Below are positions 1 through 23,801 of a stretch of DNA of 25,221 nt, piece by piece. Below the pieces are notes generated by a model. The model ran no database searches and had not been told where the DNA came from. It saw only the letters and a list, made by a program, of their open reading frames with translations. Source of the stretch: a virus; the IMG/VR virus record IMGVR_UViG_3300017963_002715, positions 1 to 25,221 of that record; one strand, written 5' to 3'. The position numbers and the translations under genes were made by a program. How positions within the stretch are numbered: position 1 is the stretch's first letter; each line of letters opens with the position of its first letter.

Positions 1-110
1 CGCCTCCGCCGCCCCCGCCGGTGCCGGCGACGGCCCCGCCCGCAGCTCAGCCGGCCGGGCAAAGTCTGGAACAGCTACAGGGTCAGCTCGAGGGCAAGCC
101 CCAGGGGTAG
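1..110 (+). CDS. 3' end of an upstream gene, Pro/Ala-rich tail (partial)
   Basis: Frame 3 is open from the window edge to TAG at 108-110. The visible 35 residues are a run of Pro, Ala and Val, then a Gln/Gly-rich end (LEQLQGQLEGKPQG). Such tails are common linkers or disordered C-termini, so the function cannot be read. The stop lies three bases before the recombinase ATG, which suggests co-transcription. The last part contains a near copy of the dispersed motif (AAAGTCTGGAAC, 61-72). Confidence 0.55.
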   Translation, partial: PPPPPPVPATAPPAAQPAGQSLEQLQGQLEGKPQG

Positions 111-113
111 GTC

Positions 114-1202
114 ATGGCGAAGCGAAAGCCGGCGAAGGCGAAGAGGCGGAAGCCGGCGCGTGCTCGCCAGCCCCGGCGAGACCCACTGGCAGAGTTCGGA
201 GCCGCCATCGGCCAGGACGGGCACGCGCAGTCGCTCACCCTGGCCGATGACGTGCTCTCGAAGGTGAAGACGTGGATCTCGACGGGTAGCCTCGCGCTCG
301 ACCGCCTCATGGCTGGAAAGGGCGTGCCGTGTGGCCGCGTGACGGAGATGTACGGGCCCAACCACATCGGCAAGTCGACGCTGCTCGACCACATGTTCGC
401 CGAGTGCCAGCGCATGGGCGGGTACGGCATTCTGCTCGACATCGAAGGCGCACGCGACGAGGCCTACACCCAGTCGATCGGCGTCGACATCTCCAGACTG
501 AGCGTGCTCGAGTTCGACCGCGCCCACCTCGTGATGGAAGAGGTCGTCGACAAGATCTTCGACTCGATCGACTTCTGGTATCGCGAGTTCCCCGACGTGC
601 CCATCGTCATCGGGTGGGACGCGCTCGGGAGCACGCGCACGCGCGACGAGGCGAACAAGTCGATGGGCGAGGACCCCATCGTCGCTGCGGCGGCCTCGGT
701 CATGCGGCGGGCGTGCCGCGCCATCATGCCGCACGTCGGTGGTACGAACATCGCGCTCGTCGTCTGCAATCACAGCTACACCCAGGTGCAGACGAGCGGC
801 GGCGTCCAGCGCCAGGTCACCTACGCGGGAGAGGCGCTCCGGCACGCGGCAACCTTCCGACTCAAGCTCCGCTCGGCGTACCCCAACCAATGGATCAAGT
901 CGACGGACGGTATCATCCTGGGGCGCCAGATCATTATCAACGTCGAGAAGAATCGCTTTGGCAATCCGTGGAACGAAGCGCGGGTCGCGCTGATGTCCGG
1001 CCACGGCATCGACAACGTCTGGTCCGTCTACGAAGAGCTGAAAGCGCGCGGCTTCATCACGACGAGCGGGTCGTGGTCGGCGATCAACCTCGACGGCGAG
1101 GTGCTCAAGTTCCAAGGCTGGAATGGGCTCAACGCCAAGATTGCAGATGACGAGACGCTATTTCCCAGGCTCGTGTCGGTCTACCAGCAGCTGGAGGCGT
1201 GA
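114..1202 (+). CDS. RecA/UvsX-like DNA recombinase
   Basis: A 362-residue strand-exchange ATPase, close to bacterial RecA length (about 350). Residues 1-22 form a Lys/Arg-rich extension. The Walker A motif is GPNHIGKST (81-89), in place of RecA's GPESSGKT. The segment LLDIEGARD (108-115) aligns with RecA's FIDAEHALD, so E111 is the likely catalytic glutamate. PIVIGWDAL (163-171) is Walker B. Residues 211-245 (ALVVCNH, then AGEALRH) match the RecA L2/DNA-binding region with its GGNALKF motif. It would coat single-stranded DNA and drive homologous pairing in phage recombination and replication. The ATG follows a weak AGGGG. It is followed with a one-base overlap by the FmdB-like gene, and the SbcD/SbcC-like genes lie in the same unit, which supports the role. 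The fold is clear; RecA versus UvsX subfamily is not decided. Confidence 0.9.
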   Translation: MAKRKPAKAKRRKPARARQPRRDPLAEFGAAIGQDGHAQSLTLADDVLSKVKTWISTGSLALDRLMAGKGVPCGRVTEMYGPNHIGKSTLLDHMFAECQRMGGYGILLDIEGARDEAYTQSIGVDISRLSVLEFDRAHLVMEEVVDKIFDSIDFWYREFPDVPIVIGWDALGSTRTRDEANKSMGEDPIVAAAASVMRRACRAIMPHVGGTNIALVVCNHSYTQVQTSGGVQRQVTYAGEALRHAATFRLKLRSAYPNQWIKSTDGIILGRQIIINVEKNRFGNPWNEARVALMSGHGIDNVWSVYEELKARGFITTSGSWSAINLDGEVLKFQGWNGLNAKIADDETLFPRLVSVYQQLEA

Positions 1203-1450
1203 TGCCAATCTACGAATACGAGTGCACGGGGTGCTTCTATCGCTTCGACGACATTCGCAATGTCGACGACGTGCCTGACGAGATCGCTATCGACTGCCCG
1301 AAGTGCTCTCGTACGTGCATGGCCAAGCGGGTGAAGGTGACGCCGTTCGCGCACCGCTGGAACCATCAGACGGCCGCGATCATGGCCGACGGGTCGCGCG
1401 TGAAGGGGCACTTCGGCAAGGAAGCGAAGCGCATCAGGAGGAAGAAGTGA
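1202..1450 (+). CDS. FmdB-type zinc-ribbon protein
   Basis: An 82-residue protein beginning MPIYEYECTGC, the standard opening of FmdB-family putative regulatory zinc ribbons. Cysteines C8/C11 and C32/C35 (CPKC) form one zinc site, and the tail is basic (KEAKRIRRKK). The family is annotated as regulatory, but its biochemical role is poorly defined; here it could bind DNA or a replication protein. The ATG at 1202 overlaps the recombinase stop by one base. A GTG directly before it (1199) is a possible alternative that adds one residue. The family start motif favours 1202. Confidence 0.8.
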   Translation: MPIYEYECTGCFYRFDDIRNVDDVPDEIAIDCPKCSRTCMAKRVKVTPFAHRWNHQTAAIMADGSRVKGHFGKEAKRIRRKK

Positions 1451-1959
1451 GCGAGCGGGAGTCGAAAGAGTTGGACAGTGCCACCGTGGGGCCGAGCAGC
1501 GTTACCGTCAACATGGACGCGGGGGCCGTCGACGCCTTCTTCCGCAACATGGGCTTCAACACGAGTCAGATGATTCGCCAGGTGGGCGCGAACAGCCGGG
1601 CGCTCGTCGACATGAAAGCGCTGATGCGCGAAGGTGCCGACCTGGCGTACAAGGTCATCGAGTGGCTCGACGAGGCATCGGAGATCCCCGGCGTGCCGCC
1701 CGAGGTCAGCGAGCTTGCTGACTGGGCAGGGCAGATACAGGTCGGCGTCATGCCCCGCAACAAGAACAAGGAGGCGCTCGAGCGCGTGATGGGCTTGATC
1801 GCGGTCATGGCCGGAGCGCTTCCGGAAGAGCTGCGGGAGCCGATGCCGGGGATCTTAGAGGACCCGAACCTTCAAGCGGTAGCGGTGCCACCTCACGCGG
1901 CGCGCGCGGTGCTCGCTGTGATCGACTTCCATCGTGGCTGGAACAGGAGATCGCTGTGA
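1447..1959 (+). CDS. Hypothetical protein in recombination operon
   Basis: A 170-residue protein that I do not recognise. It starts at GTG 1447 with AGGAGG at 1436-1441 (5-base spacing), and the GTGA overlaps the previous stop. The same frame is open further upstream, but that part lies on top of the FmdB-like gene. The protein is mostly predicted helix with a central acidic stretch (EWLDEASEIPGVPPEVSELADWAG). No cysteine pairs, membrane segment or nucleotide-binding motif is visible. Its place between the recombinase and the SbcD-like nuclease, with a GTGA overlap at both ends, suggests translation coupled to the recombination proteins. Confidence 0.75.
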   Translation: MSERESKELDSATVGPSSVTVNMDAGAVDAFFRNMGFNTSQMIRQVGANSRALVDMKALMREGADLAYKVIEWLDEASEIPGVPPEVSELADWAGQIQVGVMPRNKNKEALERVMGLIAVMAGALPEELREPMPGILEDPNLQAVAVPPHAARAVLAVIDFHRGWNRRSL

Positions 1960-2948
1960 TCATCTTCACCGACCTGCACCTGAGAGAAGAGAGCGCGGCC
2001 ACCGTGCTGGGAGAGGTGCTGCCGGGCATCCTCCAGGCGGCCCTCGCGCACAATGACCTCGACGTCGTCTTCCTGGGGGACTGGTGGCATGTCCGCAATC
2101 GCATTCCGGTCGTTCTACTCAACGCCGTCGACGCGGAGCTTGCGCGCTGGGGTGCTGCGGGCGTTCGTCTCCGAGTCTTGCCGGGTAACCACGATCAGGT
2201 GGATGTGGCCGGGCGAAACGCTCTCGAGGTCTTCGACCGCCTACCACACGTTTCCGTCTATACAGTTCCCACCCGGGACGCCGATGGCCTCTGGGTGCCG
2301 TACCGGAAGAGCGTCGACGAGCTGACGCGCCTGGTGACTTACGGCCAGTCGGAAGCATTGAAGGCCGGCGACCAGCCGGCCGTGCTCTTCGGTCACTTCG
2401 GGGTCACCGGCGCGCTCAAGGGCGTGAACATCTACGACGACGACGGCGTGCCGCTCGAGGCGCTGCAAGGCTGGCCTATGGTGCTGCTCGGGCATTACCA
2501 CCGCCGGCAGCAGCTCGGCAACGTGCAGTACATCGGCAGTCCCTGGGAGACGCGCGCCGACGAGATGGGTGACCCGAAGGGCTACGCGCGCCTCGTCGAC
2601 GGCCAGCTCACCTTCTACGATACGGCCTGGGGGCCGAAGCATTACGTCATGCACATCTCGAAGGGGCAGCCCGTCGACGGTACCGGCCTGCGGCCCCAGG
2701 ACATCGTCCACGTGCACGCCGAGCACGACGTCAACGTCGAGGCTGTCGGCCACGCACTGAGGTCGATGGGCGTGCACAACCACACCATAGCGCGCGAGGT
2801 GGCGCCGACGGTGGAGCGGCTCGAGGTGCCTCAGCAAGAGGGCGCGGCGCCTACCTTCCGCGCCTACGCGGAGGCCTTCATCCGCGCGCACCCGTGCGAG
2901 GTGCCCGAAGAGCTGCTGCTGTCGACACTGGCGGAGATTGTGGAGTAG
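1956..2948 (+). CDS. SbcD/Mre11-like metallophosphoesterase nuclease (T4 gp47 type)
   Basis: A 330-residue calcineurin-like phosphoesterase carrying the full metal-binding series: D6-x-H8 (FTDLHL), GDWWH (41-45), GNHD (77-80), GHFG (146-149) and GHYH (179-182). This is the nuclease subunit that with an SbcC/Rad50 ATPase trims double-strand ends and hairpins; T4 gp47 is the phage counterpart. The partner gene follows four bases downstream. The start is GTG 1956, overlapping the previous stop as GTGA, with AGGAG at 1945-1949. The C-terminal 130 residues would be the capping/partner-binding part. All expected motifs are intact. Confidence 0.9.
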   Translation: MIIFTDLHLREESAATVLGEVLPGILQAALAHNDLDVVFLGDWWHVRNRIPVVLLNAVDAELARWGAAGVRLRVLPGNHDQVDVAGRNALEVFDRLPHVSVYTVPTRDADGLWVPYRKSVDELTRLVTYGQSEALKAGDQPAVLFGHFGVTGALKGVNIYDDDGVPLEALQGWPMVLLGHYHRRQQLGNVQYIGSPWETRADEMGDPKGYARLVDGQLTFYDTAWGPKHYVMHISKGQPVDGTGLRPQDIVHVHAEHDVNVEAVGHALRSMGVHNHTIAREVAPTVERLEVPQQEGAAPTFRAYAEAFIRAHPCEVPEELLLSTLAEIVE

Positions 2949-2951
2949 GCC

Positions 2952-4973
2952 ATGCGAGCGAAGCGAATGCGGTTGAACAACTATGGCTCGTTCTACGGGC
3001 GGCACGAGTTCAACCTGGGCGGGCGCGGTCTGGTGTTGATCGACGGTGACAACCGCGACGACCCGTGCACCATCAGCAACGCGTCGGGCAAGTCGACGCT
3101 CATGGAGGCGCTCGACTGGTGCTGGTACGGCGAGGTGCCGCGCAAGGATGACGCCGACTCCATCGTCAATGAGGAGGCGGAGAAGGACACCTTCGTCGAG
3201 GTGGAGCTTGAGGACGAGGACGGCACCGAGCTGCGCGTCCTCCGTTTCCGCAAGGAAGGGAAGAAGTCTGGAAAGAGCGGCGTACGCCTCTTCGTGAACG
3301 ACGTCGAGCAGACCTTCCTCGACGCCAAGGAGACGCAGCTCGAGATCAACAGGCACCTGGGCATGGACCGCCACGTCTTCAAGGCGGCGGTGATGTTCTC
3401 CCAGTTCGATCGCTTCAACTTCGCCGAGTCCACCGACGCTGAGCGCGTCGAGACGCTGACGAAGATCCTCCAGCTCGAGACCATCGACGTGTGGCTGGCG
3501 AAGGCGAAGGCGCTGCGTGACCAAGCCGCGAGCGGCGCCGCAGCTGCGCGTGAAGAGAAGGTACGTGCAGAGGCCGCGCTCGACTCGTCGGCGCGCATCC
3601 TGGTCGAGTATGGCGAGCAGCAAGGGCGGTGGGAGACCGAGCGGCAGACCAAGCTCGAAGACCTGGCCAAGTCGCGGGCGGAGGTCGAGCAGTACCTCGA
3701 AGAGACGCGGCCGCTGGTGGCCGGACTCGAGCGCGACCGTGCAGCGCTCTCCCAGGCTGAGGCGGCCCGACCGGCGCCACCCCCGGAGATCGCCCAGGCC
3801 CAGGCCGCGCGCGACCAGGCGATGCAGGCGGCCGCGGGGCTCAACGGCGAGGCCCAGGGCTTCCTGCGCCAGGCGGCGGAGGTCGAGCGCGAAGTGCAGC
3901 GCTTCGGCGCGCTGAAAGTCGGGAAATGCTCCACCTGCGGCCAGGACGTCACCGCCGAGCATCTCCAGGCGGAGGTCGAGGCTCGCGGGCAGGTCGCCCA
4001 GAGTCACGTCGCCGCGGCGGAGGCGAAGAGGCAGGAAGCGGAAACTCTGGAAAGCGAGGCCGCTGGCCACGCGGCCCAGCTCGAGCAGCTTTCCAGCCTT
4101 TACGACGCCGAGCTGCGCGCGCATGGGGAGAGGGTGCTCGAGCTGCGGCAGAAGGTCGACGCCGCGGCCAACGCCCAGGGCTACGTGCACAGCGCTGAGC
4201 AGTCGCTCTGGCGCATTGACGAGGACGTCCGCGGGTGGACGGCCGCGGTCAACCCCTACGTCGAGAAGCTCGCGGCGACCCAGGAAGAGCGCGCGAGCCT
4301 GGAGCTGCGTCTCGGCCAGCTCGTGCAGCACGCGGAGGCGCTGCGCCTGCGAGAGGCGGCCTTCGACTACCACGTGAAGGCGTGCGGCCCGAAGGGCATC
4401 AAGTCGTACATCCTCGACGCGCGGCTGACCGACCTCACCGAGGCGGCCAACCGTTGGGTGCAGCTGCTCACCGGTGGCGCGATCTGGGTGCAGTTCACCA
4501 CGCACGGCATGACGACGAAGAAGACGCTGAGCAACAAGGTCGAGGTCAAGGTCTTCAAGTACAACGCGCGCGGCACCGTCACCGAGCGCGGCTACCGGAG
4601 CTGGTCGGGCGGCGAGAAGGGCAAGGTCGCCCTGGGCATCGACTTCGGCCTGGCCGCGCTCGTTGCCAGGCGCGCACACAAGCGCTTCGACATCCTGATC
4701 CTCGACGAGCTATTCCGGCACCTCGACGGCGCGGGGAAGGAAGCCGTCGTCGAGATGCTCACCTACCTGCGCCAAGAGAAGAGCAGCATCTTCGTCGTCG
4801 AGCACGACGTCGACTTCGCCGACGCATTCGAGAACCGCATCGTCATCGTCAAGGAAGGCGGCCGTAGCCGCATCACCGAGGGAGGTAACAGTGAGACCCC
4901 GAAACCGCGCAGAGCGCAAAGGCGCACACGTCGTCCGGTTCGTTCCCCTGTTCGAACATCCGGAGAAGCCTAG
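2952..4973 (+). CDS. SbcC/Rad50-like ATPase (T4 gp46 type)
   Basis: A 673-residue SMC-like ATPase, nearer to phage gp46 length than to E. coli SbcC (about 1050). Walker A is SNASGKST (42-49). The Q-loop is FSQFD (Q151). A long Ala/Glu/Gln-rich coiled coil (about 180-470) is broken by a zinc hook, CSTCG (C326, C329). The ABC signature is WSGGEKGK (551-558), Walker B ILILDE (581-586), D-loop RHLDG (589-593), and the H-loop histidine is H618. It pairs with the SbcD-like nuclease in DNA end processing. The last about 28 residues are very basic and Pro/Arg-rich and are encoded where the next gene overlaps by 83 bases. Two variants of the dispersed motif and one exact copy lie inside. Confidence 0.9.
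   Translation: MRAKRMRLNNYGSFYGRHEFNLGGRGLVLIDGDNRDDPCTISNASGKSTLMEALDWCWYGEVPRKDDADSIVNEEAEKDTFVEVELEDEDGTELRVLRFRKEGKKSGKSGVRLFVNDVEQTFLDAKETQLEINRHLGMDRHVFKAAVMFSQFDRFNFAESTDAERVETLTKILQLETIDVWLAKAKALRDQAASGAAAAREEKVRAEAALDSSARILVEYGEQQGRWETERQTKLEDLAKSRAEVEQYLEETRPLVAGLERDRAALSQAEAARPAPPPEIAQAQAARDQAMQAAAGLNGEAQGFLRQAAEVEREVQRFGALKVGKCSTCGQDVTAEHLQAEVEARGQVAQSHVAAAEAKRQEAETLESEAAGHAAQLEQLSSLYDAELRAHGERVLELRQKVDAAANAQGYVHSAEQSLWRIDEDVRGWTAAVNPYVEKLAATQEERASLELRLGQLVQHAEALRLREAAFDYHVKACGPKGIKSYILDARLTDLTEAANRWVQLLTGGAIWVQFTTHGMTTKKTLSNKVEVKVFKYNARGTVTERGYRSWSGGEKGKVALGIDFGLAALVARRAHKRFDILILDELFRHLDGAGKEAVVEMLTYLRQEKSSIFVVEHDVDFADAFENRIVIVKEGGRSRITEGGNSETPKPRRAQRRTRRPVRSPVRTSGEA
3264..3274 (+). 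repeat. Dispersed motif AAGTCTGGAAA, exact copy 1
   Basis: Exact 11-base core inside the SbcC-like gene, read as KSGK. Confidence 0.7.
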
Positions 4974-5457
4974 CGCCGTCGTCGAGGGCCCGGAGCACTA
5001 CATCGAAGGGCAGCTCGAGGAGTTTCTCGTCGTCAGCGTGCCCCAGGACATCACGCACGCCGCTGCGGAAGAGCTACAGGTGAAGCTCAAGGAGCAGCTG
5101 GGCGACCGGCCGATCATCGTCATCACTCACAACGTCACCTTCGGGCGTCTCGAGAAGCTCTCGCCGAACGAGGCCGCGCGGGTGATCCATCGAATCGAGA
5201 GCGTGATCTATGACAAGGGTGAGGACACCGGTATCTGTGACGCCGACGGCAACCCCATCCACGTCGGAGACCTCGAGAAGGGAACCGCCAAGCTCGCAGT
5301 GGTGGACGGGCCCTTCGACCCCGACAACCCCGACGACGTCAAAGGACTCGCCGCCGAGCACATCGACCGGTCCTACGTCGACAAGGGCGGAACAATCATC
5401 GAGCAGTCGGGAGCCGGAGAAGACGAGGGCGGGGGCGATAACGGCTCTGGGGATTGA
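4891..5457 (+). CDS. Hypothetical acidic protein overlapping SbcC-like gene
   Basis: A 188-residue protein of unknown function. The N-terminus is basic and the tail acidic and Gly-rich (GAGEDEGGGDNGSGD). The middle has a beta/alpha segment ending in a hydrophobic strand (RPIIVITHNVTFGRL), but I see no catalytic motif. GTG 4891 follows GGGAGGT (4880-4887), a strong Shine-Dalgarno, and no later start of equal quality exists in frame. I therefore accept the 83-base overlap with the SbcC-like gene. The resolvase reading frame emerges at its 3' end. Confidence 0.7.
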   Translation: MRPRNRAERKGAHVVRFVPLFEHPEKPSAVVEGPEHYIEGQLEEFLVVSVPQDITHAAAEELQVKLKEQLGDRPIIVITHNVTFGRLEKLSPNEAARVIHRIESVIYDKGEDTGICDADGNPIHVGDLEKGTAKLAVVDGPFDPDNPDDVKGLAAEHIDRSYVDKGGTIIEQSGAGEDEGGGDNGSGD

Positions 5458-5992
5458 CCCGGGCTTTGCGGCCGGCGGCGCGGTGGTGCTGCGTCAGGAC
5501 GCTCAGGGTGCACCGATACGCTTCGTCGACGGCGTGGTGCTCGAGACGAAGAAGGCTGGAAAGAAGGAGCGCAAGTCGCTGCGGGTGACCGACGACGACG
5601 CGCGGCGAGTGCGAGAGATCTACGACATGGCCGACGAGCTGCGCAAGCGTCACCACGTCAACGTCATCGGCGTCGAGGCCTACATGCCCTTCGGCAAGAA
5701 CGCGAGCGGTTGGAAGGCCGGCGGCATCTACTACGGCTTTATGATGGCAGGCCGCGCGTGGGGTATCCCGGTGCTCCCCTTCGTGCCCCAGGATCTCAAG
5801 CGGGCCTTTCACAAGAAGCAGAACGTCAGCAAGGCGGCGATCGGTGATACACTGGCTGGAAAGGTCAACGGCCTGGGCGAGTTCGTCGCTACCCTGGCGA
5901 AGGGCAAGCGCGAGCACGTCACCGACGCGGCCGGGCACGCGTACCTGGCCATCGTCGAGGCCTACAACCTGCGTCAAATGATGGGAGTCTGA
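5438..5992 (+). CDS. RuvC-like Holliday junction resolvase, start codon non-canonical
   Basis: The protein has the RuvC/RNase H fold signature: GIDPG with the first catalytic Asp, then IGVEAYMP with the catalytic Glu about 73 residues later, and HVTDAAGHAYLA with the C-terminal Asp. These residues cut four-way DNA junctions and resolve branched replication products before packaging. The family normally begins a few residues before GIDPG. Here no ATG, GTG or TTG exists in frame near that point. The nearest codons are ATA 5438 and CTG 5447, behind GAGGGCGGGGG. The only canonical upstream start is ATG 5210, which would add about 79 low-complexity Ser/Thr/Pro residues and overlap the previous gene by 248 bases. 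I chose 5438 as a practical limit; the body of the gene is firm, the start is not. Confidence 0.75.
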   Translation: MTALGIDPGFAAGGAVVLRQDAQGAPIRFVDGVVLETKKAGKKERKSLRVTDDDARRVREIYDMADELRKRHHVNVIGVEAYMPFGKNASGWKAGGIYYGFMMAGRAWGIPVLPFVPQDLKRAFHKKQNVSKAAIGDTLAGKVNGLGEFVATLAKGKREHVTDAAGHAYLAIVEAYNLRQMMGV

Positions 5993-5993
5993 G

Positions 5994-6314: not shown

Positions 6315-6991
6315 AAGAGGCGACGCGGACGAAGAAGACGAAGGCGACCGTCGACATCCACCTGCCGTCGGAGAAGCCGGACCTCGAAGAGCTGGCGCGC
6401 ACGGACCTGCGCACGGTAGCGAAGCTCTACTACGTCACCGATCTGCACGAGTGTTCCGTCGAGGACATGGCCTCTCTCGCCCAGTTCTCGTCGGTGTCGC
6501 TGAGCACCCTACGCGCTTGGTGCACGAAGGACGGCTGGGTTGAAGCCCGTCGCCAGGTGAAAGACGACTGGCAGAAGAAGCTCGAGAGCAAGCTCGGCGA
6601 AGAGATCACCCGGCAGCGGCTGGTCTTCCTCGACGAGATGCAGACGATCTGGCAGCAGGGCATGAAGATGGTCGACCTCAGCAAGATCGGCGAGCCCGAC
6701 GCTGACGGTATCGTCGCGCTGCCGAAGACCTGGGAGGGCGTCGTCGGGGCGATGGTGAAGCTCGGCGGCATGATGGATCAGATGGCGACGTCTATCCGTG
6801 ACGACGTGGCGCCGAAGGAGAACGCCCAGGGGAAGGGCGGCAACCGGCTGCAAGTCGAGCTGGAGCTGACAGAGGAAGAGTCCCAGGGCGCGGTCAAGGC
6901 CATCCTCGAGAAGCGACGGCTTACTACCCGGCAGAAGGCCGGCATTGAAGACGAGGACATACTCGATGCCGACTACAAAGAGGTCAAGTAG
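6257..6991 (+). CDS. HTH protein, possible terminase-small-subunit-like DNA-binding protein
   Basis: A 244-residue protein. Residues about 55-100 read as a helix-turn-helix: LAQFSSVSLSTLRAW followed by CTKDGW, a pattern seen in phage terminase small subunits and related HTH proteins (start of recognition helix, then a W-x-x-x-GW turn). The rest is helical with a Lys/Glu-rich C-terminus. ATG 6257 has GAAGGA immediately before it and overlaps the previous gene by 58 bases. The large terminase is about 14 kb away, so a packaging role is only possible. A transcription or replication-origin binding role is equally open. Confidence 0.7.
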   Translation: MSKKHIQDGFGRTVPDYLLEEATRTKKTKATVDIHLPSEKPDLEELARTDLRTVAKLYYVTDLHECSVEDMASLAQFSSVSLSTLRAWCTKDGWVEARRQVKDDWQKKLESKLGEEITRQRLVFLDEMQTIWQQGMKMVDLSKIGEPDADGIVALPKTWEGVVGAMVKLGGMMDQMATSIRDDVAPKENAQGKGGNRLQVELELTEEESQGAVKAILEKRRLTTRQKAGIEDEDILDADYKEVK

Positions 6992-7715
6992 GTGGACACC
7001 TGCGCAAGCGGGGGCGCTGCTGATCGGCATCGGCGCATACGGCCGGGACTGGTTCAAGCGCAAGACGGGCAGGACCATCCCCGCCATCATGGCCCAGGCG
7101 CGCAAGCGCTATGGGACGGCGTCGCTCACCAGGGGGACGTGGTCGCTGCGCAAGGCGATGGCGGAGACCGGCTACTCGCGCTCGCAGCTCCTGCGCGCGC
7201 AGAGCGCACTGGGGCAGAAGTGGCGGCGCACGTCGGCGCGCGGGCGCTACATCATCTCCGAAGAGCAGCTGCGGGAGTTGACCGACTGGCTGGTGCACGA
7301 CTACTGGTCGACGTCGAAGTCGCTCTACAACTGTCTCTGGTGCACGACGACGGAGCGGCCGACCTATGCGATCGGCCTGTGCCGGTCGTGCTACAAGGCG
7401 CACGCGCGGCGCGCGCACTCGTTAGGGGTGCCCGTGGCCTTGTGCGGGCAGCGACAGTTCGTGTTAGCTTTGCAGGCCGAAGGGGTAGAGAGTGACGTAT
7501 TCTGGAGACCAGCACTGGCCCGGCTCGAGATGGGGATCGCACTTGACTTCCGACAGCTCACTACGCTTGGGCGATTGGCACAGTCTCTTGAGACTAGCGG
7601 CGGAGCTGCGCGCGGACACGGCGACGGAAGCGTTTGTCGATCTGGTGGAGGCCTGGTGGTCGTCGACGAACCTGACGAAGGGCGAGATGCTGACGGTGTT
7701 GAAGAGGGTTCATAA
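6966..7715 (+). CDS. HTH and zinc-ribbon protein
   Basis: A 249-residue protein if it runs to 7715. Residues 55-80 resemble a helix-turn-helix (TWSLRKAMAETGYSRSQLLRA). A zinc ribbon follows with C123/C126 and C139/C142 (CLWC, CRSC). ATG 6966 has GAGG at 6953-6956 and overlaps the preceding gene by 26 bases; a TTG at 6945 is less likely. Phage DNA-binding proteins of unknown role often combine such HTH and zinc-ribbon parts. From about 7560 this frame loses coding character (a Gly/Ser/Arg-rich composition) while another frame becomes protein-like. The true C-terminus may therefore be shorter in origin, or a frameshift may have extended it. Confidence 0.7.
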   Translation: MPTTKRSSRWTPAQAGALLIGIGAYGRDWFKRKTGRTIPAIMAQARKRYGTASLTRGTWSLRKAMAETGYSRSQLLRAQSALGQKWRRTSARGRYIISEEQLRELTDWLVHDYWSTSKSLYNCLWCTTTERPTYAIGLCRSCYKAHARRAHSLGVPVALCGQRQFVLALQAEGVESDVFWRPALARLEMGIALDFRQLTTLGRLAQSLETSGGAARGHGDGSVCRSGGGLVVVDEPDEGRDADGVEEGS

Positions 7716-14983: not shown

Positions 14984-15029
14984 AACTCTGGAAAATGGCG
15001 ACCGACGACGGCGCCTGGAGGGACTCACC
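14983..15029 (+). promoter_or_regulatory. Short leader with motif variant and hairpin
   Basis: AACTCTGGAAAA (14984-14995) overlaps the stop region of the previous gene. It is followed by a bulged hairpin, GGCG-A-CCG-ACGA-CGG-CGCC (14997-15015), and a GGAGGGA ribosome site. The segment CCGACGACGGCGCCT is shared with the leader of the gene at 15662. Confidence 0.5.
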
Positions 15030-16456: not shown

Positions 16457-16486
16457 CCCCTCGCCGACGGCGACGTGGGCGAGGGG
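16457..16486 (+). promoter_or_regulatory. Stem-loop in intergenic gap, terminator-like without U-run
   Basis: CCCCTCGCC pairs perfectly with GGCGAGGGG (9 bp) around a 12-base loop. No T-run follows, so it is either a weak or factor-assisted terminator or an RNA processing/stability element after the DUF2786 gene. Confidence 0.45.
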
Positions 16487-16513
16487 GGTGGCCGCTGGTC
16501 AATCAACCCAGGA

Positions 16514-16532
16514 GGCCGTCACGACGACGGCC
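16514..16532 (+). promoter_or_regulatory. Leader hairpin GGCCGTC-ACGAC-GACGGCC
   Basis: A perfect 7-bp stem with a 5-base loop, seven bases before the GAGGGAG ribosome site of the gene at 16546. It sits in the same place relative to the ribosome site as the hairpins before 10080, 13642, 15030 and 15662. Confidence 0.5.
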
Positions 16533-16545
16533 AGAGGGAGAGGCG

Positions 16546-16956: not shown

Positions 16957-16965
16957 GAGAACGAG

Positions 16966-17657: not shown

Positions 17658-17661
17658 GGGT

Positions 17662-18456
17662 GTGCCGACGAAGGTCCGGCCGGGCGGCAAGCCCTTCGTC
17701 CAGACACTGCATTGCGATGCCGTGCACGCACTGCGCGCGATGGCGCCCAGCTCGATCGACATCGTGGTGACCGACCCGGCCTACGAAAGCCTGGAAAAGC
17801 ACCGCGCCCGTGGAACCACGACCCGGTTGAGCCACAGCAAGGCCAGCTCGAATGACTGGTTCAACATCTTCCCCAACAGCCGCTTTCCAGACTTCTGCGC
17901 GGAGCTGTACCGCGTGCTCCGGCCGGGCTCGCACTGCTACGTGATGTGCGACGACGAGACCAGCGACGTGCTCAAGCCCGAGCTGGCGGCCGCCGGTTTC
18001 AAAGTCTGGAAACGGCTGGTCTGGGACAAGATGAAGATCGGCATGGGCTACCACTACCGCGCGCGCTACGAGTTCATCCTCTTCGCCGAGAAGGGCAAGC
18101 GCAAGCTCGCCGACCTGGGCGTGCCCGACGTGCTCAAGGGGCCCGCGGCGCTCGACGAGATCGACGACGTGCTCGAGGTGCCCAGGGTCTGGCGGGGCTA
18201 CCCGACCGAGAAGCCTGTCGAGCTGGCGGAGATCCTCATTCGTCAAAGTGCCGGCGCCGGCGATATACTCTGTGACCCCTTCATGGGGAGCGGCGCGTTC
18301 GGGGTGGCGGCAGTGAAGCACGGACTCGATTTCATCGGCATCGACGCGTGCGAGGAAGCCTTCGAGGCGGCCTCCGCGCGCGTCTGGGAAGCAGCGGGCG
18401 CGGCAGCTGCTCAGGCAGCCGCAGAGGGCAACACAGAGGGCGCCTGGTGGCGCTAG
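17662..18456 (+). CDS. DNA methyltransferase, beta-class (DPAY type)
   Basis: A 264-residue SAM-dependent DNA methyltransferase. Motif IV, TDPAYE (D38-Y41), comes first. A variable middle region includes the phage-family blocks NDWFNIFPNSRFPDF, WDKMKIGMGYHYRARYEFILF and YPTEKPVELAEILIRQS. The SAM-binding motif I, DPFMGSGAFG (205-214), comes near the end with FIGID. The order IV-TRD-I defines the beta class, which methylates adenine N6 or cytosine N4. The target is unknown. No restriction partner is adjacent, so protection from host restriction or epigenetic control are likely uses. GTG 17662 is chosen because the first strand follows closely; its ribosome site (GGTGAGG) is only 2 bases away, so the start is uncertain. 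Three copies of the dispersed motif lie in the gene. Confidence 0.85.
   Translation: MPTKVRPGGKPFVQTLHCDAVHALRAMAPSSIDIVVTDPAYESLEKHRARGTTTRLSHSKASSNDWFNIFPNSRFPDFCAELYRVLRPGSHCYVMCDDETSDVLKPELAAAGFKVWKRLVWDKMKIGMGYHYRARYEFILFAEKGKRKLADLGVPDVLKGPAALDEIDDVLEVPRVWRGYPTEKPVELAEILIRQSAGAGDILCDPFMGSGAFGVAAVKHGLDFIGIDACEEAFEAASARVWEAAGAAAAQAAAEGNTEGAWWR
17884..17894 (-). repeat. Dispersed motif AAGTCTGGAAA, exact copy 6
   Basis: Reverse-strand core in the methyltransferase gene, read as RFPDF. Confidence 0.7.
18002..18012 (+). repeat. Dispersed motif AAGTCTGGAAA, exact copy 7
   Basis: Core in the methyltransferase gene, read as KVWK. Confidence 0.7.
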
Positions 18457-18464
18457 GAGGTCAC

Positions 18465-18770
18465 GTGCGTGGGAATGGAGCGCAAGAGCGCAGGGGCAGC
18501 GGCAGAGGCATGGGCGGCAACGGTCGAGGCGACCGGCCGCCGCTCCCGCCGCTGGATTGGCAGACTGTCGATACTCTGGAAAACGGCGACCTTCATCTCG
18601 AGGTCCGTCAGGCGGCTCTGTCTGACGGTCGCGGCTACCGCACGTCGTTCTCCGTCGGCCGGAAGACGCGGAACGACCGTACCACCAAATGGTTCCGGTC
18701 TTCCGACGCCACCGACCTGATCCAGCTCTTGGAAGACTACAAGGCGTGGATGGAAAGCCGAGTGCGCTGA
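18465..18770 (+). CDS. Hypothetical protein
   Basis: A 101-residue protein. The N-terminus is Gly/Arg-rich and probably disordered. The rest forms a small domain (DTLENGDLHLEVRQAAL; TSFSVGRK; WFRSSDATDLIQLLEDYKAWM) that looks globular. GTG 18465 has AGGAGG at 18455-18460, only 4 bases away but the best site nearby; GTG 18471 and ATG 18475 are out of frame. It includes a motif variant (TACTCTGGAAA, 18572-18582). Function unknown. Confidence 0.6.
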   Translation: MRGNGAQERRGSGRGMGGNGRGDRPPLPPLDWQTVDTLENGDLHLEVRQAALSDGRGYRTSFSVGRKTRNDRTTKWFRSSDATDLIQLLEDYKAWMESRVR

Positions 18771-18771
18771 C

Positions 18772-19056
18772 ATGCTGCGCTGGGCTACCGTGGCTGTCCT
18801 AGCCTTCGTCGCCAGTGCGGCGGTGACCTGGCTGTGGTTGCAAAACGGTGCCCAGGGGCGCGAGCTGGAGCGCCTGCGTCGTCAGGTAGCTGAGCAGCGG
18901 CAGACAGCTCTGGTGCAGCAGCGGGTGTGCGAGCGGCTCGCCATCGCCAACCGAGAGTATGAGCGATCCCTGGCGGGCGCAGCTCGCCGACATGCCGCAG
19001 TGAATAGTCTGGAATTGCATGGGCCGATTCCGACGAGGACCGGCGCGCCACCGTAA
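18772..19056 (+). CDS. Membrane-anchored coiled-coil protein, possible i-spanin-like
   Basis: A 94-residue protein. Residues 4-24 are a transmembrane segment. It is followed by a charged helical region (RELERLRRQVAEQRQTALVQQRVCERLAIANREYERSL) and a Pro/Thr-rich end. This build, N-in with a coiled coil outside, is typical of Rz-like inner spanins, which act at lysis in hosts with an outer membrane. Size fits the shorter end of that family. It follows another small gene, not the endolysin, so the assignment rests on topology only. ATG 18772 starts one base after the preceding stop. Confidence 0.55.
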   Translation: MLRWATVAVLAFVASAAVTWLWLQNGAQGRELERLRRQVAEQRQTALVQQRVCERLAIANREYERSLAGAARRHAAVNSLELHGPIPTRTGAPP

Positions 19057-19098
19057 CGATCGCGGCGCTGATGTGTTTTACCTAGTAGGGGAGGCGCC

Positions 19099-19299
19099 AT
19101 GAAGAAGACCGACGGCGACGAGAAGGGGCGGGAAGCCTGGAAAGCGCTCGGATGGCTGCTGCTGCTCGTACTGCTGATCGTGGGATGGGGCTCGTGCGAC
19201 TACGCGTGCTGGCGTGCCCAGCACCCGGACGCACCGACGTGGTCGTACGGCTGCCACTGTCTGGACAACAAGGGCGGCAGCGGGAGCAAGCGCAAGTGA
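19099..19299 (+). CDS. Small membrane protein with cysteine-rich ectodomain
   Basis: A 66-residue protein: a short charged N-terminus, a hydrophobic helix (LGWLLLLVLLIVGWG, 17-31), then C33, C37, C52 and C54 in a small domain outside the membrane. The segment before C33 is only loosely like a lipobox. As the partner of the preceding spanin-like protein it could be an outer-membrane or periplasmic component, but that is inference. ATG 19099 follows GTAGGGGAGG. A motif variant, AAGCCTGGAAAG, lies within. Confidence 0.55.
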   Translation: MKKTDGDEKGREAWKALGWLLLLVLLIVGWGSCDYACWRAQHPDAPTWSYGCHCLDNKGGSGSKRK

Positions 19300-19340
19300 A
19301 AGTCAGGAAAGTTGAGCGCGTGACGACGGACTGGTAGGGT
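19299..19340 (+). promoter_or_regulatory. Possible promoter with upstream motif
   Basis: A motif variant AAAGTCAGGAAAG (19299-19311) is joined directly to TTGAGC (19312-19317). After a 17-base spacer comes TAGGGT (19335-19340), and the expected start is about 3 bases before the ATG at 19350. The arrangement motif, then -35, copies the other two promoters, but both boxes are weaker. Confidence 0.35.
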
Positions 19341-19349
19341 AGGCGCTTC

Positions 19350-19946
19350 ATGTCGAACGGCTTGCGAGTTCTGATATACGACGCGGTGCGGGCGCCTGGG
19401 CTGCTCGACGAGACCTGGGCGTTCGGCGCCTACTGGGCGCGCAAGTTCGGCCGCTTCGACGTCGTCATCCCCGCAGTGGACTGGTCGTCGACGTTGCGAG
19501 CTGCCGCGCTGATCGAGCAGCCCGACCCGATCGCAGAGCTTCACTTCTGGGGACACGGCAGCCCCGGCCGCGTCTACGTCGGCGGCAAGGCGATCAACCG
19601 CGTGGTCTTCACCAGTCCGACGCATCCCTGGCACGCGCCCATGGTGGCGTTGTCGTCGAGGATGCGCCCCGAGAGCTTGGTCTGGTGGCGGACGTGCTCG
19701 ACGTTCGCGCGCGAGCGCGGGCAGGCGTTCGCCCGGGAGTGCGTCGACTTCTTCGGCTGCCGCGTGGCGGCGTCGACGTTCAACATCGGGCTGTTTCACT
19801 CCGGCATCCATTCTCTGCGCCCAGGTGACGAGCCGAGCTGGCCCGCCGACGAGGGCGTGTCGACGAAGGGCGGGCAGCGCTCGTCGTGGCCGTGGCGCCC
19901 GAACACGATCAGCTGCTTTCGCTCACGCATCCCCAGCGAGTGGTGA
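19350..19946 (+). CDS. Hypothetical protein with caspase-like His/Cys signature
   Basis: A 198-residue protein. A predicted beta strand runs into HFWGHGSPGRVYVGG (H69), and a second strand, SLVWWRTCSTFARERGQAFARECVDFFGCRVAASTF, carries C116. The order strand-H-G and strand-C followed by a helix and an LG-CRVAAST strand resembles caspase-fold proteases and related CHAT/clostripain proteins. The remaining part (IHSLRPGDEPSWPADEG) is conserved-looking but of unknown meaning. The protein could be a protease or an inactive relative. ATG 19350 has AGGGTAGG upstream and lies close to a weak predicted promoter. Confidence 0.6.
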   Translation: MSNGLRVLIYDAVRAPGLLDETWAFGAYWARKFGRFDVVIPAVDWSSTLRAAALIEQPDPIAELHFWGHGSPGRVYVGGKAINRVVFTSPTHPWHAPMVALSSRMRPESLVWWRTCSTFARERGQAFARECVDFFGCRVAASTFNIGLFHSGIHSLRPGDEPSWPADEGVSTKGGQRSSWPWRPNTISCFRSRIPSEW

Positions 19947-19947
19947 C

Positions 19948-20289
19948 ATGGACAATCCCAACCCGCACATCTTCGACGCTGAGGCGCAGAAGCTCCCCGA
20001 GAGTGAGCGCATCACGCGAGGTGACCAGGCGGTGAACGAGTGCCGGCGCATGATCGACGAGTGCGCCGCTTTCCGTCGACAGATCGACCTGATGGGGACC
20101 AACCCGCAGAGCTTCGGCGTGTCGGTGCGAGCCTACAAGCGGATGGGCTGGCAGCTCATGGTGAAGACGGGCGGCGTGCTCGGCGAGATCAAGGGCTACT
20201 ACCGGACAGGGACCATCGGCCAGGTGGCGTTCGATCTGCTGTGCAAGGAAGCAGAGAGCACCATCGGCGTCGGCATCATTCAACCGTGA
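19948..20289 (+). CDS. Hypothetical protein
   Basis: A 113-residue protein, not recognised. A central Cys/Arg helix (NECRRMIDECAAFRRQIDLMG) is followed by a strand-rich end (VSVRAYKRMGWQLMVKTGGVLGEIKGYYRTGTIGQVAFDLL). ATG 19948 starts two bases after the previous stop. The gene lies two genes upstream of the coiled-coil protein before the terminase, but no packaging motif is visible. Confidence 0.65.
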   Translation: MDNPNPHIFDAEAQKLPESERITRGDQAVNECRRMIDECAAFRRQIDLMGTNPQSFGVSVRAYKRMGWQLMVKTGGVLGEIKGYYRTGTIGQVAFDLLCKEAESTIGVGIIQP

Positions 20290-20298
20290 GGTGACGAC

Positions 20299-20646
20299 GT
20301 GTGTGAAGTCTGTCCCGTCTGCGAACTGGTATATGACGACTTCCGCACAGGGTTCACCTACCAAGACATCTACGGGATGCTGTGGAGCGCGAGCGATGAC
20401 CCGTCGACGTGGCGCTACAAGCGGCGCCACACCATCCTCGGGCTCTGGCACCAAATCAAGAAGGAGATGTGGCGCGACCACGTCGCTGACTGCCGTGAGC
20501 AGCAGCGTGAAGAGGCGGCGGCTGAGGTAGAGGTCTCTGTCCAGGCCGCTCGTGAGGTCGCAGATCTCGAGGTCGACATCGCGCTTCTCGTCGCGCTGGC
20601 GGCCACTGGTAACAACCCGGCGCACGCTGACGCTGTGCCGTTCTGA
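20299..20646 (+). CDS. Hypothetical protein with N-terminal CxxCxxC
   Basis: A 115-residue protein. The N-terminus MCEVCPVCEL holds C2, C5 and C8, and a further Cys sits in HVADC, so a zinc site is plausible. The middle stretch YQDIYGMLWSASDDPSTWRYKRRHTILGLWHQIKKEMW looks like a conserved small domain seen in other phage proteins, but I cannot name it. The tail is helical. GTG 20299 has GAGGTG at 20288-20293. Confidence 0.65.
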   Translation: MCEVCPVCELVYDDFRTGFTYQDIYGMLWSASDDPSTWRYKRRHTILGLWHQIKKEMWRDHVADCREQQREEAAAEVEVSVQAAREVADLEVDIALLVALAATGNNPAHADAVPF

Positions 20647-20660
20647 CTGGAGTTGACGGC

Positions 20661-21071
20661 ATGGGTGACGTCGGTATGATGGGTGTGGCTGCCCAAGCCA
20701 TGACCGGCAGCTCGACGCTCGGCGCGGTCCTCCCCCCCGACTGCAATGAGCTAGAGCTGCCGGTCTCTTCTTCACAGCAGGGACTGATGCAACACAGAGA
20801 CTGGCGCTACGAGGACGAGGTCCACGCGTTGCGCGCTCAAGCGATTGCGCTCGAGTCGCAGGTGGAGAGCTGCAAGACGCAGGTGGAGTCGATGACGACG
20901 ATGCTCAAGGCGCTCGACGAACAAGTGCACGTGCTGCGCTGGCGCCTGACGCAAGCGGAGGCAGAGACCAAGGTTCGACAAAGTCTGGAAAGTGAGGCAG
21001 ACTCGAAGGATGGAAAGTCAGGAAAAGCCGCGCCGCCGACGGCCGGTGAAGAGGACCCCGGCCAAGCGTGA
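20661..21071 (+). CDS. Coiled-coil protein before the terminase
   Basis: A 136-residue protein. The first 45 residues are Gly/Ser/Met-rich; residues about 50-110 are a strong coiled coil (HALRAQAIALESQVESCKTQVESMTTMLKALDEQVHVLRW); the tail is Lys/Glu/Pro-rich. It overlaps the terminase start by 62 bases. As a coiled-coil protein next to the large terminase it could be a small-subunit analogue, but no HTH is visible. ATG 20661 has GGAG in the preceding spacer. Two motif copies lie in the overlap region. Confidence 0.65.
   Translation: MGDVGMMGVAAQAMTGSSTLGAVLPPDCNELELPVSSSQQGLMQHRDWRYEDEVHALRAQAIALESQVESCKTQVESMTTMLKALDEQVHVLRWRLTQAEAETKVRQSLESEADSKDGKSGKAAPPTAGEEDPGQA
20981..20991 (+). repeat. 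Dispersed motif AAGTCTGGAAA, exact copy 8
   Basis: Core in the coiled-coil gene near the terminase start; the full 13-base form is 20980-20992. Confidence 0.7.
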
Positions 21072-22857
21072 CGAGCACGGCCGCTTCTCACCGAAGCCGA
21101 GCGCGCTAGAGACCGCAATGGAGAACGCCGGCGTCACCGACGGCGCGGGTGCGCTTGCGGTCGAGGTGCAAAAGGCTGGAAAGCTCGGGGAGCATCTACA
21201 GCAGCTGCTCGACTACAGCTGCGCCTTCTTCGCCAGCGAGGTGCTCAGCGGGCCGCCTGACCCACCGTACAACGGCAGGTTCCTGATCGGTCGCCATCAC
21301 GAAGAGTGGGACGCGTTGGTGCGCGAGCACCATCGTATCTGCATCATGGCGCCTCGCGACCACTCCAAGACCTTCTTCTTCGACCTGGCCTATCCGATCT
21401 GGCGCGCGTCGAAGGAGCCCAACGGGATCGGCTTCATCTTCTCGGCGACAGCTCCCCAGGCCGAGCGCATCTTGCAGGACATCAAGGACGAGCTGGAGCG
21501 CAACCCGAAGCTCCAGCACCTCGTGCCCAAGAACAAGACGATGTGGTCGTCGACGGCAATCAAGCTCAGCAACGGCCACCGCATCTACGCACGCGGGTTC
21601 GGCACCAAGGTCCGCGGCGCTCACCCAACGTGGATCGTCGTCGACGACGGCCTCAATGACGAGGACGCCTACAGCGAGACCGTGCGCAAGAAGCACGTGG
21701 ACTACTTCTACACCGCCATCACGAACATGATCGTGCCGGGTGGTCAGATCATCGTCGTCGGTACGCCGTTCCACGAGGCGGACCTCTACGCCCAGCTCCG
21801 CACGAACGTCGAGTATAAGTTCGTCCGCTATCAGGCCCTCGACGAGGACACCGGGCGCGTGCTCTGGCCGGAGCGCTACAACCGCGAGCGGCTCGAGCAG
21901 AGGCGTCGAGAGATCGGCACCGTGCGCTTCGCGCGCGAGTTCCAATGCGTGCCGGTCAGCGACGAGATGTCGCTGTTCCCCTCGACGCTATTCCAGGGCT
22001 CACCGATCGAGCAGCCGCTGGTCAAGCTGGGTATGCCGATCGAGTTCTGGCGCAAGGCAGGCATCCGCAGCGTCTTCATGGGCGTTGACATCGCGCTGTC
22101 GTCGTCGGCCGGCGCTGACTACACCGTGATCTGGACGATGGGTATCGACGTCTTCGAGAACCGGTGGATACTGGACATCTTCCGAGACAAGGGGCTCGAC
22201 TACCACGTGCAGCTGAGCCACATCAACAGCATCGCCAGGCGCTACAAGGCGGACTTGATCTTCATCGAAGCGAACCAGGCGCAGCGAGTGTTCGGCACCG
22301 AGCTGATACGCACGACCGACCTACCGGTGAAGCTCTACGAGACTGGCGAAGAGAAGCACAGTCTCGAGAAGGGCGTCCCGTCGCTGCGTGTGAAATTCGA
22401 GAACAAGAAGTACCGCATCCCGCGCGGGGACACGCGCAGCGTCGAGCTGACCGACGTGTGGGTCGCCGAGCTGCGCGCCTTCACCTTCGACGAGGGCAAG
22501 GTGGTGTCCGTGGCTACGCACGACGATACCGTGATGGCGAATTGGATGTGCGAGAACGCCATCAGCCAGGGCGCGTTCTCGTTCTCATTCGGTGACGAAG
22601 AGGATGACTACGTCGACCACAAGATCGCCAAGGGGGAGTTGAAGGAGAGCGCGCTCACCAAGGAAGAGCTGGAGAAGTACATGGCCGAAGTGGCGGCCGA
22701 CCAGAAGCGCGTGCTCGAGGCGGTGGCCGCTGGCACAGTGAAGACGGAAGAGAAGGTGCCCGACGCCAGTGCACCGAAGTTCAACCTCGTCGACGAGGAT
22801 ACGGGTACGCTCAAGGAAGGCGCGCCGTCGCCATCGCAGATGGGAAGGTTCTGGTAG
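21010..22857 (+). CDS. Terminase large subunit
   Basis: A 615-residue ATP-dependent DNA packaging motor and nuclease. An Arg/Lys-rich N-terminus precedes the ATPase domain: variant Walker A MAPRDHSKT (113-121), Walker B WIVVDDGLND (208-217) with adjacent acidic residues, and coupling segment TPFHEADLY. The RNase H-like nuclease follows: FMGVDIALSSSAGADYTVI (D360), LIFIEANQAQ (E420) and HDDTVMANWM (D505/D506). It joins the procapsid to translocate and cut concatemers. ATG 21010 is chosen; a GTG at 20992 would add six residues, and the ribosome site is weak for both. The first part carries several motif copies (20981, 21014, 21171). Confidence 0.9.
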   Translation: MESQEKPRRRRPVKRTPAKRDEHGRFSPKPSALETAMENAGVTDGAGALAVEVQKAGKLGEHLQQLLDYSCAFFASEVLSGPPDPPYNGRFLIGRHHEEWDALVREHHRICIMAPRDHSKTFFFDLAYPIWRASKEPNGIGFIFSATAPQAERILQDIKDELERNPKLQHLVPKNKTMWSSTAIKLSNGHRIYARGFGTKVRGAHPTWIVVDDGLNDEDAYSETVRKKHVDYFYTAITNMIVPGGQIIVVGTPFHEADLYAQLRTNVEYKFVRYQALDEDTGRVLWPERYNRERLEQRRREIGTVRFAREFQCVPVSDEMSLFPSTLFQGSPIEQPLVKLGMPIEFWRKAGIRSVFMGVDIALSSSAGADYTVIWTMGIDVFENRWILDIFRDKGLDYHVQLSHINSIARRYKADLIFIEANQAQRVFGTELIRTTDLPVKLYETGEEKHSLEKGVPSLRVKFENKKYRIPRGDTRSVELTDVWVAELRAFTFDEGKVVSVATHDDTVMANWMCENAISQGAFSFSFGDEEDDYVDHKIAKGELKESALTKEELEKYMAEVAADQKRVLEAVAAGTVKTEEKVPDASAPKFNLVDEDTGTLKEGAPSPSQMGRFW

Positions 22858-23123
22858 TGCCGCGCTACGGCAACAAGCGGCGCCCGAGCACTATCCACTG
22901 TCCGGCGTGTCACGGCATCGCGGCGACGAGGAAGGGAAGCGCGTGCAGGTTCTGCGGAGTGAGGCTCTACTACGTTGGCGAGATCATCGTCGACGATGAC
23001 AAGCAAGCATTCGTCTGGGTCGACGACGGTTGGAGACCCGTCACCGACTCGAAGGGGACAACCAATGGCGACGAAACGGGCAGCCAAGAAGAGCGCGATC
23101 AAGCGCGGGCGGGCGCAGACTAA
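22857..23123 (+). CDS. Zinc-ribbon hypothetical protein
   Basis: An 88-residue protein. C15/C18 (CPAC) and C30/C33 (CRFCG) form a zinc ribbon, followed by a small strand pair (GEIIVDDDKQAFVWVDDGW). The acidic/charged end is encoded in the 59-base overlap with the next gene. GTG 22857 shares one base with the terminase stop (TAGTG). Function unknown. Confidence 0.65.
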   Translation: MPRYGNKRRPSTIHCPACHGIAATRKGSACRFCGVRLYYVGEIIVDDDKQAFVWVDDGWRPVTDSKGTTNGDETGSQEERDQARAGAD

Positions 23124-23550
23124 ATTCGAGGTGCCGTACACCGTCGGTGATCGGTTCTATCTCGTCGACGAGTTCGAGGGTAGCTTCGCAGGCTGTGACG
23201 TCTGTGACGACGTGGGCTATCTGCACAGCGACGACCAAGACGAGGACTTCACGTGTCCAGCGTGTGAGGGAAGCGGCCGAGGCGGGCAGGTATCCGAGTT
23301 CCGCATAATCAAGTACCAGATCACCGCGTTCACTATCAGGCTCGCGCGCTGCGGCCGCATCCGGCCGGCGAAGTTGGCGCCGCAGGTGTTCTACCGCCTG
23401 GATGAGATGAAGGTCGAACTGAGCACCTTGCAGGACAACCCCCGCTGGTGTCGCACCAAGCGCGAGGCTGAGGCGGTGGCGCGCAAGCTCCGCATGGGTG
23501 AGTCGATCGGCTACACGCACCGCCCCAGTGAGGAAGGTGCGGGTCTCTGA
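23065..23550 (+). CDS. DnaJ-type zinc-finger protein
   Basis: A 161-residue protein. The basic start (MATKRAAKKSAIKRGRAQTK) leads to C44/C47 (CDVCDDVGY) and C64/C67 (CPACEGSGRG), which match the CxxCxGxG repeats of the DnaJ zinc finger, though the first one is degenerate. The remainder mixes strands and a helical, charged end. Such fingers in phages often serve small nucleic-acid or protein-binding proteins. ATG 23065 has AAGGGG at 23052-23057. Confidence 0.65.
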   Translation: MATKRAAKKSAIKRGRAQTKFEVPYTVGDRFYLVDEFEGSFAGCDVCDDVGYLHSDDQDEDFTCPACEGSGRGGQVSEFRIIKYQITAFTIRLARCGRIRPAKLAPQVFYRLDEMKVELSTLQDNPRWCRTKREAEAVARKLRMGESIGYTHRPSEEGAGL

Positions 23551-23801
23551 TGCTCAAGGCGTGGCACGTCTGGTGCGGATCAGACCCTAGCGACGGGTCG
23601 CTGCTCGTCTTCGAGGCGACGGTCGGAGCTGCGAAGGCTTTGGCCTGGCGCAAGACGCCATACGACTGGGACTACTTTCCAGACTTGCACATCCGCCGCG
23701 CGCCGGACTGGGACGCCTACGCTGACACGCCCAGGGTGGTCGAGACCAACGAAGAGATGCCGGAGAGCGCGCCGGCGTTCTATGACGACGAGCGGTGCTG
23801 A
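23550..23801 (+). CDS. Hypothetical protein
   Basis: An 83-residue protein, probably one alpha/beta domain (AWHVWCGSDPSDGSLLVFEATVGAAKALAWRKT) with an acidic tail. The ATG overlaps the preceding stop. An exact reverse-strand copy of the dispersed motif (23676-23686) encodes YFPDL. Function unknown. Confidence 0.65.
   Translation: MLKAWHVWCGSDPSDGSLLVFEATVGAAKALAWRKTPYDWDYFPDLHIRRAPDWDAYADTPRVVETNEEMPESAPAFYDDERC
23676..23686 (-). repeat. Dispersed motif AAGTCTGGAAA, exact copy 9
   Basis: Reverse-strand core in the small gene at 23550, read as YFPDL. Confidence 0.7.

Follow-up and report, generated by a model that had tools for sequence, protein, structure and literature searches.

A dispersed 12-bp word in a large myovirus, its dialects in relatives and a candidate phage-encoded reader

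Introduction

Short words that recur along a genome are known from several systems. The DNA uptake sequences (DUS) of the Neisseriaceae form dialects in which a CTG core is invariant (PMC3630211). Phages of the Pasteurellaceae take up the uptake signal sequences (USS) of their hosts, the large lytic phages being poor in them (PMC6776037). The stoperators of cluster A mycobacteriophages such as L5 and Bxb1 are asymmetric, dispersed 13-bp sites that differ between relatives, and their reader is a monomer that has two DNA-binding domains (PMC9283540, PMC6550527). T5, phiKMV-like and tf phages carry 9-17 nick sites, all on a single strand (PMC3517423), and HIP1 of cyanobacteria, a word of bacterial chromosomes, is linked to GATC/CGATCG methyltransferases (PMC4390886). 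Here we examine a dispersed word, AAGTCTGGAAA, in the 25,221-bp IMG/VR record IMGVR_UViG_3300017963_002715 (the window, that is, the whole stretch of DNA analysed), where a preliminary description made from the sequence alone had noticed it. We tentatively favor the reading that the word is one dialect of a family-wide recognition sequence read by a DNA-binding protein of the phage itself.

Results

All nine exact copies of AAGTCTGGAAA that the preliminary description had reported were found at its coordinates and on its strands, and no other 11-mer in the window is as strongly over-represented (9 copies vs 0.002 expected under an order-3 Markov model). The close variants listed with them are present too, some of them one base away from the positions given. 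For genome-wide counts we used the closed phage genome: IMGVR_UViG_3300028840_002926 (37,877 bp) matches window positions 1-17743 at 100% identity, IMGVR_UViG_3300028840_002336 (70,144 bp), from the same metagenome, matches 17706-25221 with one mismatch, and these two contigs overlap mutually at both ends, giving a 107,856-bp circle. One phage is thereby catalogued as three separate viral contigs. The circle holds 19 exact copies (14 + / 5 -) and 62 copies at ≤1 mismatch (51 + / 11 -). Codon-preserving shuffles, proposed earlier as a control, failed to reproduce the excess: in 60 synonymous-codon shuffles, exact copies averaged 0.35/0.32 and copies at ≤1 mismatch 1.8/1.5, with maxima of 2 and 4. 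That the word is dispersed was borne out, while its length, put at 11-13 bases, was refined to a 12-bp consensus, AAWGKCWGGAAA, for which a weight matrix finds 121-132 sites genome-wide and 35 in the window, against 8-14 in a reversed-sequence control. Copies on the coding strand use all three frames (30/15/33). The earlier view that the word exists at the DNA level and is not explained by protein sequence was upheld; chance and codon usage as its source are ruled out by the Markov expectation and the shuffles. We also agree that this dialect lacks dyad symmetry and that the word belongs among the dispersed recognition sites of phages or hosts. When viral contigs were scanned with a 16-mer, 33 other contigs were returned, all of them chance matches (32 single-copy and one two-copy).

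To collect relatives, scans were made for the capsid, which yielded 49 viral loci, and for the recombinase, which yielded 68; the family is one of apparently lytic myoviruses with large genomes of 105-110 kb. Neither a tyrosine or serine integrase nor ParB turned up in this phage and its close relatives, for which reason we regard the phage as apparently lytic. A different word, TTTTCTGGAA, is the top word in the relatives labelled G037 (109 kb), G042 (97 kb), G039, G041 and G052, at ~2.3 per kb over both strands, with 255 sites in G037 (139 + / 116 -) and 221 in G042. Further words are ATT[T/G]CTGGA in G078, TTGCTGGA in G045 (50 copies vs 1.9 for permuted words), AAATCTGGAAA in G044 (7.7 kb), perhaps CGACTGGG in G079 (a weak motif in a partial genome), and the palindrome TCCGGA in G077 (319 vs 58 expected). 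The relatives' words range from quasi-palindromic (TTTCTGGAA) to this full palindrome, and most dialects share a CTGG core in phages of 46-66% GC. No motif was seen in G046 or in the more distant phages of similar size G063, G069, G071 and G074. When viral contigs were scanned for two copies of the TTTTCTGGAA dialect, the matches were the known relatives and, otherwise among the dense matches inspected, repeats unrelated to the family; the GGxTTTCTGGA-type matches were rejected as tandem repeats that read as collagen Gly-x-y. More distant SPO1-type phages carry the palindromes CGACAATTGTCG, with a CAATTG core (G060, L128-L130), and CTTCSGAAG (G062/G081, L083/L094), at ~0.8-1.5 per kb.

The sister dialect allowed the sites to be followed between genomes, G042 and G037 being 72.5% identical over 65 kb. 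Between these two, 66% of the TTTCTGGA sites are fully conserved vs 5-7% for permuted words, and 64% vs 8.6% expected when matched for flank identity. Per-base identity rises from ~0.67 outside to 0.84-0.92 across the motif, and the block of identity spans exactly the nine motif bases. Third codon positions are identical at 0.80 inside the motif, vs 0.48 in the flanks and 0.51 genome-wide, and in each class of frame and strand 50-76% of the sites are conserved, vs 7-12% for random coding 8-mers. Comparisons of G042 with G052 and with G039 agree. The synonymous-site conservation recommended as a check in the preliminary description is, in these relatives, strongly positive, and it shows that in the TTTTCTGGAA dialect duplex DNA is under purifying selection at fixed positions. 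Because the sites are conserved in all frames and on both strands, duplex DNA is read, rather than protein or one mRNA strand; an mRNA-level element was rejected for the sister dialect, whose sense sites match the antisense ones both in frequency and in conservation. For the window's own dialect we infer the same selection from kinship.

The placement of the copies was partly as first described. The over-representation in gaps was reproduced, with 1.9-2.4 sites per kb of non-coding vs 0.53 per kb of coding DNA, and the enrichment is 3-4 fold in this phage, G037 and G042, although ~80% of the copies are intragenic. Clustering proved to be mild (coefficient of variation of spacing 1.26, with an excess of pairs <100 bp apart); tandem site pairs within 80 bp number 102 vs 58 expected, and regular spacing or helical phasing was looked for and not seen. 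Two paralogous promoter regions, the window gaps 9926-10079 (array 1) and 13480-13581 (array 2), each hold paired copies exactly 50 bp apart, the second beside a -35-like TTGAA. In array 1 a further copy lies between the -35 and the -10 of a promoter-like site (Table 1); the gap of array 2 fails the promoter scan.

The word does occur on both strands, as claimed, but it is not strand-neutral, with 101 + and 31 - sites genome-wide and 31 and 4 in the window. The + excess is 82:15 over map positions 0-80 kb and 11:11 over 80-108 kb (p=0.001), so that the bias vanishes in the latter part while gene direction stays constant across the map. Orientation tracks the A-over-T excess of the + strand, and the TTTTCTGGAA dialect, which is T/A-balanced, shows unbiased orientation in G037 and G042. 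Since the motif is A-rich on one strand, we read the bias as compositional opportunity and not as functional; a polar function was rejected because the bias matches AT skew, not gene direction.

A candidate reader of the word is encoded in the window (Table 1), and its gene is present in this phage, G037, G042, G045, G077, G078, G079 and G080, which are all eight family genomes with a replication module. The N-terminus is a Myb/SANT-like helix bundle, with a weak Pfam match in two members; the other modules are a MerR-like winged helix and a zinc site of four cysteines. In its AlphaFold model (pLDDT 72, pTM 0.44), the protein locally matches the DNA-binding domains of RacA and pSK1 Par (probability 0.99, though with E ~0.2-0.4), with which the candidate shares the MerR-like winged-helix fold, whereas the overall protein differs. 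One member of the candidate's family matches PHROG 323, 'D5-like transcriptional regulator' (T5 D5-like). Such a protein would plausibly suit a long asymmetric site.

Table 1. Copies of the word and the candidate reader gene in the window
Feature	Position	Strand	Remark
AAGTCTGGAAC	62..72	+	motif copy; weight matrix 18.7 bits
Exact motif	3264..3274	+	in SbcC-like gene, read KSGK
AAGTCGGGAAA	3916..3926	+	variant
AACTCTGGAAA	4043..4053	+	variant
AAGGCTGGAAA	4090..4100	-	variant
AAGGCTGGAAA	5552..5562	+	variant
Candidate reader gene	6945..7715	+	Myb-like, MerR-like winged helix, Cys4 zinc; alternative ATG start 7089
AAGTCGGGAAT	7875..7885	+	variant
AAGGCTGGAAA	8040..8050	+	variant
Exact motif	8463..8473	-	
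AAGCCTGGAAA	8998..9008	+	variant
Exact motif	9097..9107	+	
Exact motif	9934..9944	+	upstream copy of promoter array 1
ATTGTCAGGAAA	9984..9994	+	50 bp past first copy; adjoins -35-like hexamer TTGAAG (9999)
AGAGTCTGGAAA	10004..10014	+	within -35/-10 spacer of promoter-like site 9999-10026
TACTCTGGAAA	12356..12366	+	variant
Exact motif	13491..13501	+	upstream copy of promoter array 2
ATTGTCTGGAAA	13541..13551	+	50 bp past first copy; adjoins TTGAAC
Variant	14984..14994	+	in gap ahead of gene start 15030
AAGCCTGGAAA	17787..17797	+	variant
Exact motif	17884..17894	-	in N4/N6 methyltransferase gene
Exact motif	18002..18012	+	
TACTCTGGAAA	18572..18582	+	variant
TAGTCTGGAAT	19005..19015	+	intergenic variant
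AAGCCTGGAAA	19133..19143	+	variant
AAGTCAGGAAA	19300..19310	+	intergenic; immediately upstream of TTGAGC-N17-TAGGGT
Exact motif	20981..20991	+	shortly before terminase start
AAGTCAGGAAA	21015..21025	+	variant
AAGGCTGGAAA	21172..21182	+	variant
Exact motif	23676..23686	-	

Discussion

The reading that we tentatively prefer, though with less than even confidence, is that this myovirus family has a dispersed recognition sequence in double-stranded DNA, of which the word is one dialect, and that the reader of the word is a sequence-specific DNA-binding protein encoded by the phage, for which the three-module protein at 6945-7715 would be the best candidate. Such a reader might occupy ~1-2 sites per kb and so mark and organise the phage chromosome, and at the few copies in promoters binding may also regulate early transcription. 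Because orientation is unconstrained, we would place the reader with chromosome markers of the RacA/Par type rather than with roadblocks, which is the weaker part of the proposal. Several observations weigh against it. Most sites are intragenic, which would be odd for a regulator; the tie between reader and motif is one of co-occurrence; and the candidate is also present in G080, which is partial and has no clear motif, and in G079 with its weak motif. The dialect with the palindrome TCCGGA may represent a separate system, and no site positions are shared between this phage and G037 or G045, few sites being alignable.

A wider interpretation, which we consider unlikely as it stands, is that a lytic phage family writes its own genome-wide, dialect-forming address tag at 1-2 per kb, kept inside genes by selection, by which a phage protein tells phage from host DNA for organisation, replication, packaging or protection. 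If this were true, the tag would be a viral counterpart of DNA uptake sequences. 

Purifying selection on a short word at one site per ~400-1000 bp along a lytic phage genome implies that some protein reads the phage chromosome as a whole. Few examples are known of such a layer of phage biology, be it self-recognition or chromosome organisation. The dialects offer natural variants for mapping protein-DNA specificity.

The main rival, which also counts against a phage-encoded reader and which we hold to be possible but on the whole doubtful, is a host signal shared by the phage, that is, an uptake sequence (USS/DUS), Chi or a HIP-like word read by host competence, recombination or repair proteins and acquired by the phage through long co-evolution or to pass as self. 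In form, the word appears to work most like DNA uptake sequences, a resemblance read from the phages. Like DUS and USS, which are 9-12 bp long and occur at ~1 per kb both within genes and between them, on either strand and as fixed-core lineage dialects (PMC3630211), also in phages (PMC6776037), the word is found at about this density on both strands, with intragenic siting, gap enrichment and dialects around an invariant core, from which the TCCGGA dialect departs. Pasteurellaceae phages accumulate host USS (PMC6776037), and sites are somewhat rarer in orphan genes (0.69 vs 1.10 per kb in this phage, 1.72 vs 2.28 in G037), as expected for slow accumulation. The word differs in that the phages are apparently lytic, no host genome is shown to carry it, one dialect is palindromic, and positional selection is shown within phages. 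Against this rival, no Y-/S-integrase or ParB was found in the family, and in the known case large lytic phages are USS-poor (PMC6776037). The CTGG core recurs in phages that differ widely in GC and so follows the phage family, and the TCCGGA palindrome, impossible for Chi, together with the balanced orientation argues against that comparison. There was no enrichment in two metagenome-assembled genomes (Myxococcales and Latescibacterota) found with a related capsid gene by a capsid-alignment scan of genome contigs, nor any comparable enrichment in 237 Myxococcota genomes, though the host is possibly unsampled; the best-looking genome, G289, is just AT-rich. If it is host-derived, the motif could tie phages to hosts. 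The capsid genes in the two metagenome-assembled genomes, which are chromosome-level (L279, CP070713.1; L280, CP070677.1), are ~60% identical to that of the phage, which suggests prophages or binning artefacts.

Much less probable is a stoperator system, in which a repressor on oriented sites halts elongation, as in cluster A mycobacteriophages. It is suggested by the asymmetric 12-13 bp sites with promoter copies, by a candidate that may be a monomer with several DNA-binding modules, and by the 101 to 31 orientation bias with transcription in this phage; the likeness lies in asymmetric dispersed sites that vary among relatives. Cluster A stoperators, however, number up to ~30, lie in short gaps and promoters and are oriented with transcription, whereas the phage motif numbers 100-250 (~120 sites here and ~250 in G037), lies in genes in ~80% or more of cases, and is unconstrained in orientation, being balanced in G037, in G042 and at map 80-108 kb with codirectional genes. 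The comparison made in the preliminary description thus breaks down on orientation as well as on number and placement. A temperate repressor system was judged improbable, since no integrase or ParB was found. The same description had raised start-associated sequences. Those of cluster K sit immediately upstream of translation starts, and here only 5 of 68 strict sites lie in gaps ≤40 bp from a start, a placement that does not match.

That the sites belong to a modifying or nicking enzyme (HIP-like methylation or a T5-type nick), with the word spread or kept by enzyme-linked repair, is a shade more improbable still. The palindromic TCCGGA, CAATTG and CTTCSGAAG dialects of other members would fit, as would the N4/N6 methyltransferase of this phage. 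Among 16 records, however, PF01555, the one methyltransferase family searched, occurs only in this phage and G052, so that no family-wide methyltransferase link was found. HIP1 is likewise a genome-wide iterated word, and part of the phage set has palindromic dialects, but the window dialect is asymmetric, and with PF01555 not family-wide a HIP1-type palindrome was rejected. The nick sites of T5, phiKMV-like and tf phages share with the motif a short consensus repeated over a phage genome; they are 9-17 in number and on one strand (PMC3517423), whereas the motif occurs on both (101 + / 31 - here, 139 / 116 in G037), and nick sites were rejected on this ground. Finally, a compositional or coding by-product is highly improbable, being refuted for the excess by the synonymous shuffles and the conservation in all frames and standing solely for the strand bias, which follows the strand's A-over-T excess.

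Other features of the phage and its relatives

The closed genome has 65.5% GC, with 111 of its 113 called genes on one strand. It is that of a myovirus with an SPO1-type major capsid protein (PHROG 752), whose top cultured match is 37%, to Bacillus SPO1-like phages. Portal, prohead protease, tail sheath, baseplate and terminase are encoded, as are a DnaB-type helicase, a primase, a PolA-type polymerase, a UvsX-like recombinase, SbcCD, a RuvC-like nuclease and a processivity factor. The N4/N6 DNA methyltransferase gene (window 17416-18456) is absent from most relatives. PAPS-reductase-like domains (PHROG 424) occur in two proteins (window 10080-11270 and map 50846-56575), one of them inside a 1909-aa virion-region protein.

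The PolA-type polymerase of G037 (L109:13893-16712) holds an intein with Hint and HNH domains, and that of G042 (L111:10107-12881) carries a similarly sized insert near the corresponding position, without an intein match. In G078 (L333 / L354-L359), tandem AGCTTGAGG(AG) units occur in ~25 copies, mainly on one strand. In G045 (L116-L121), the coding strand has 18 copies of GAGGAGAGCGA, 15 of them with a start codon within 14 nt; it is an extended ribosome-binding or start-associated sequence.

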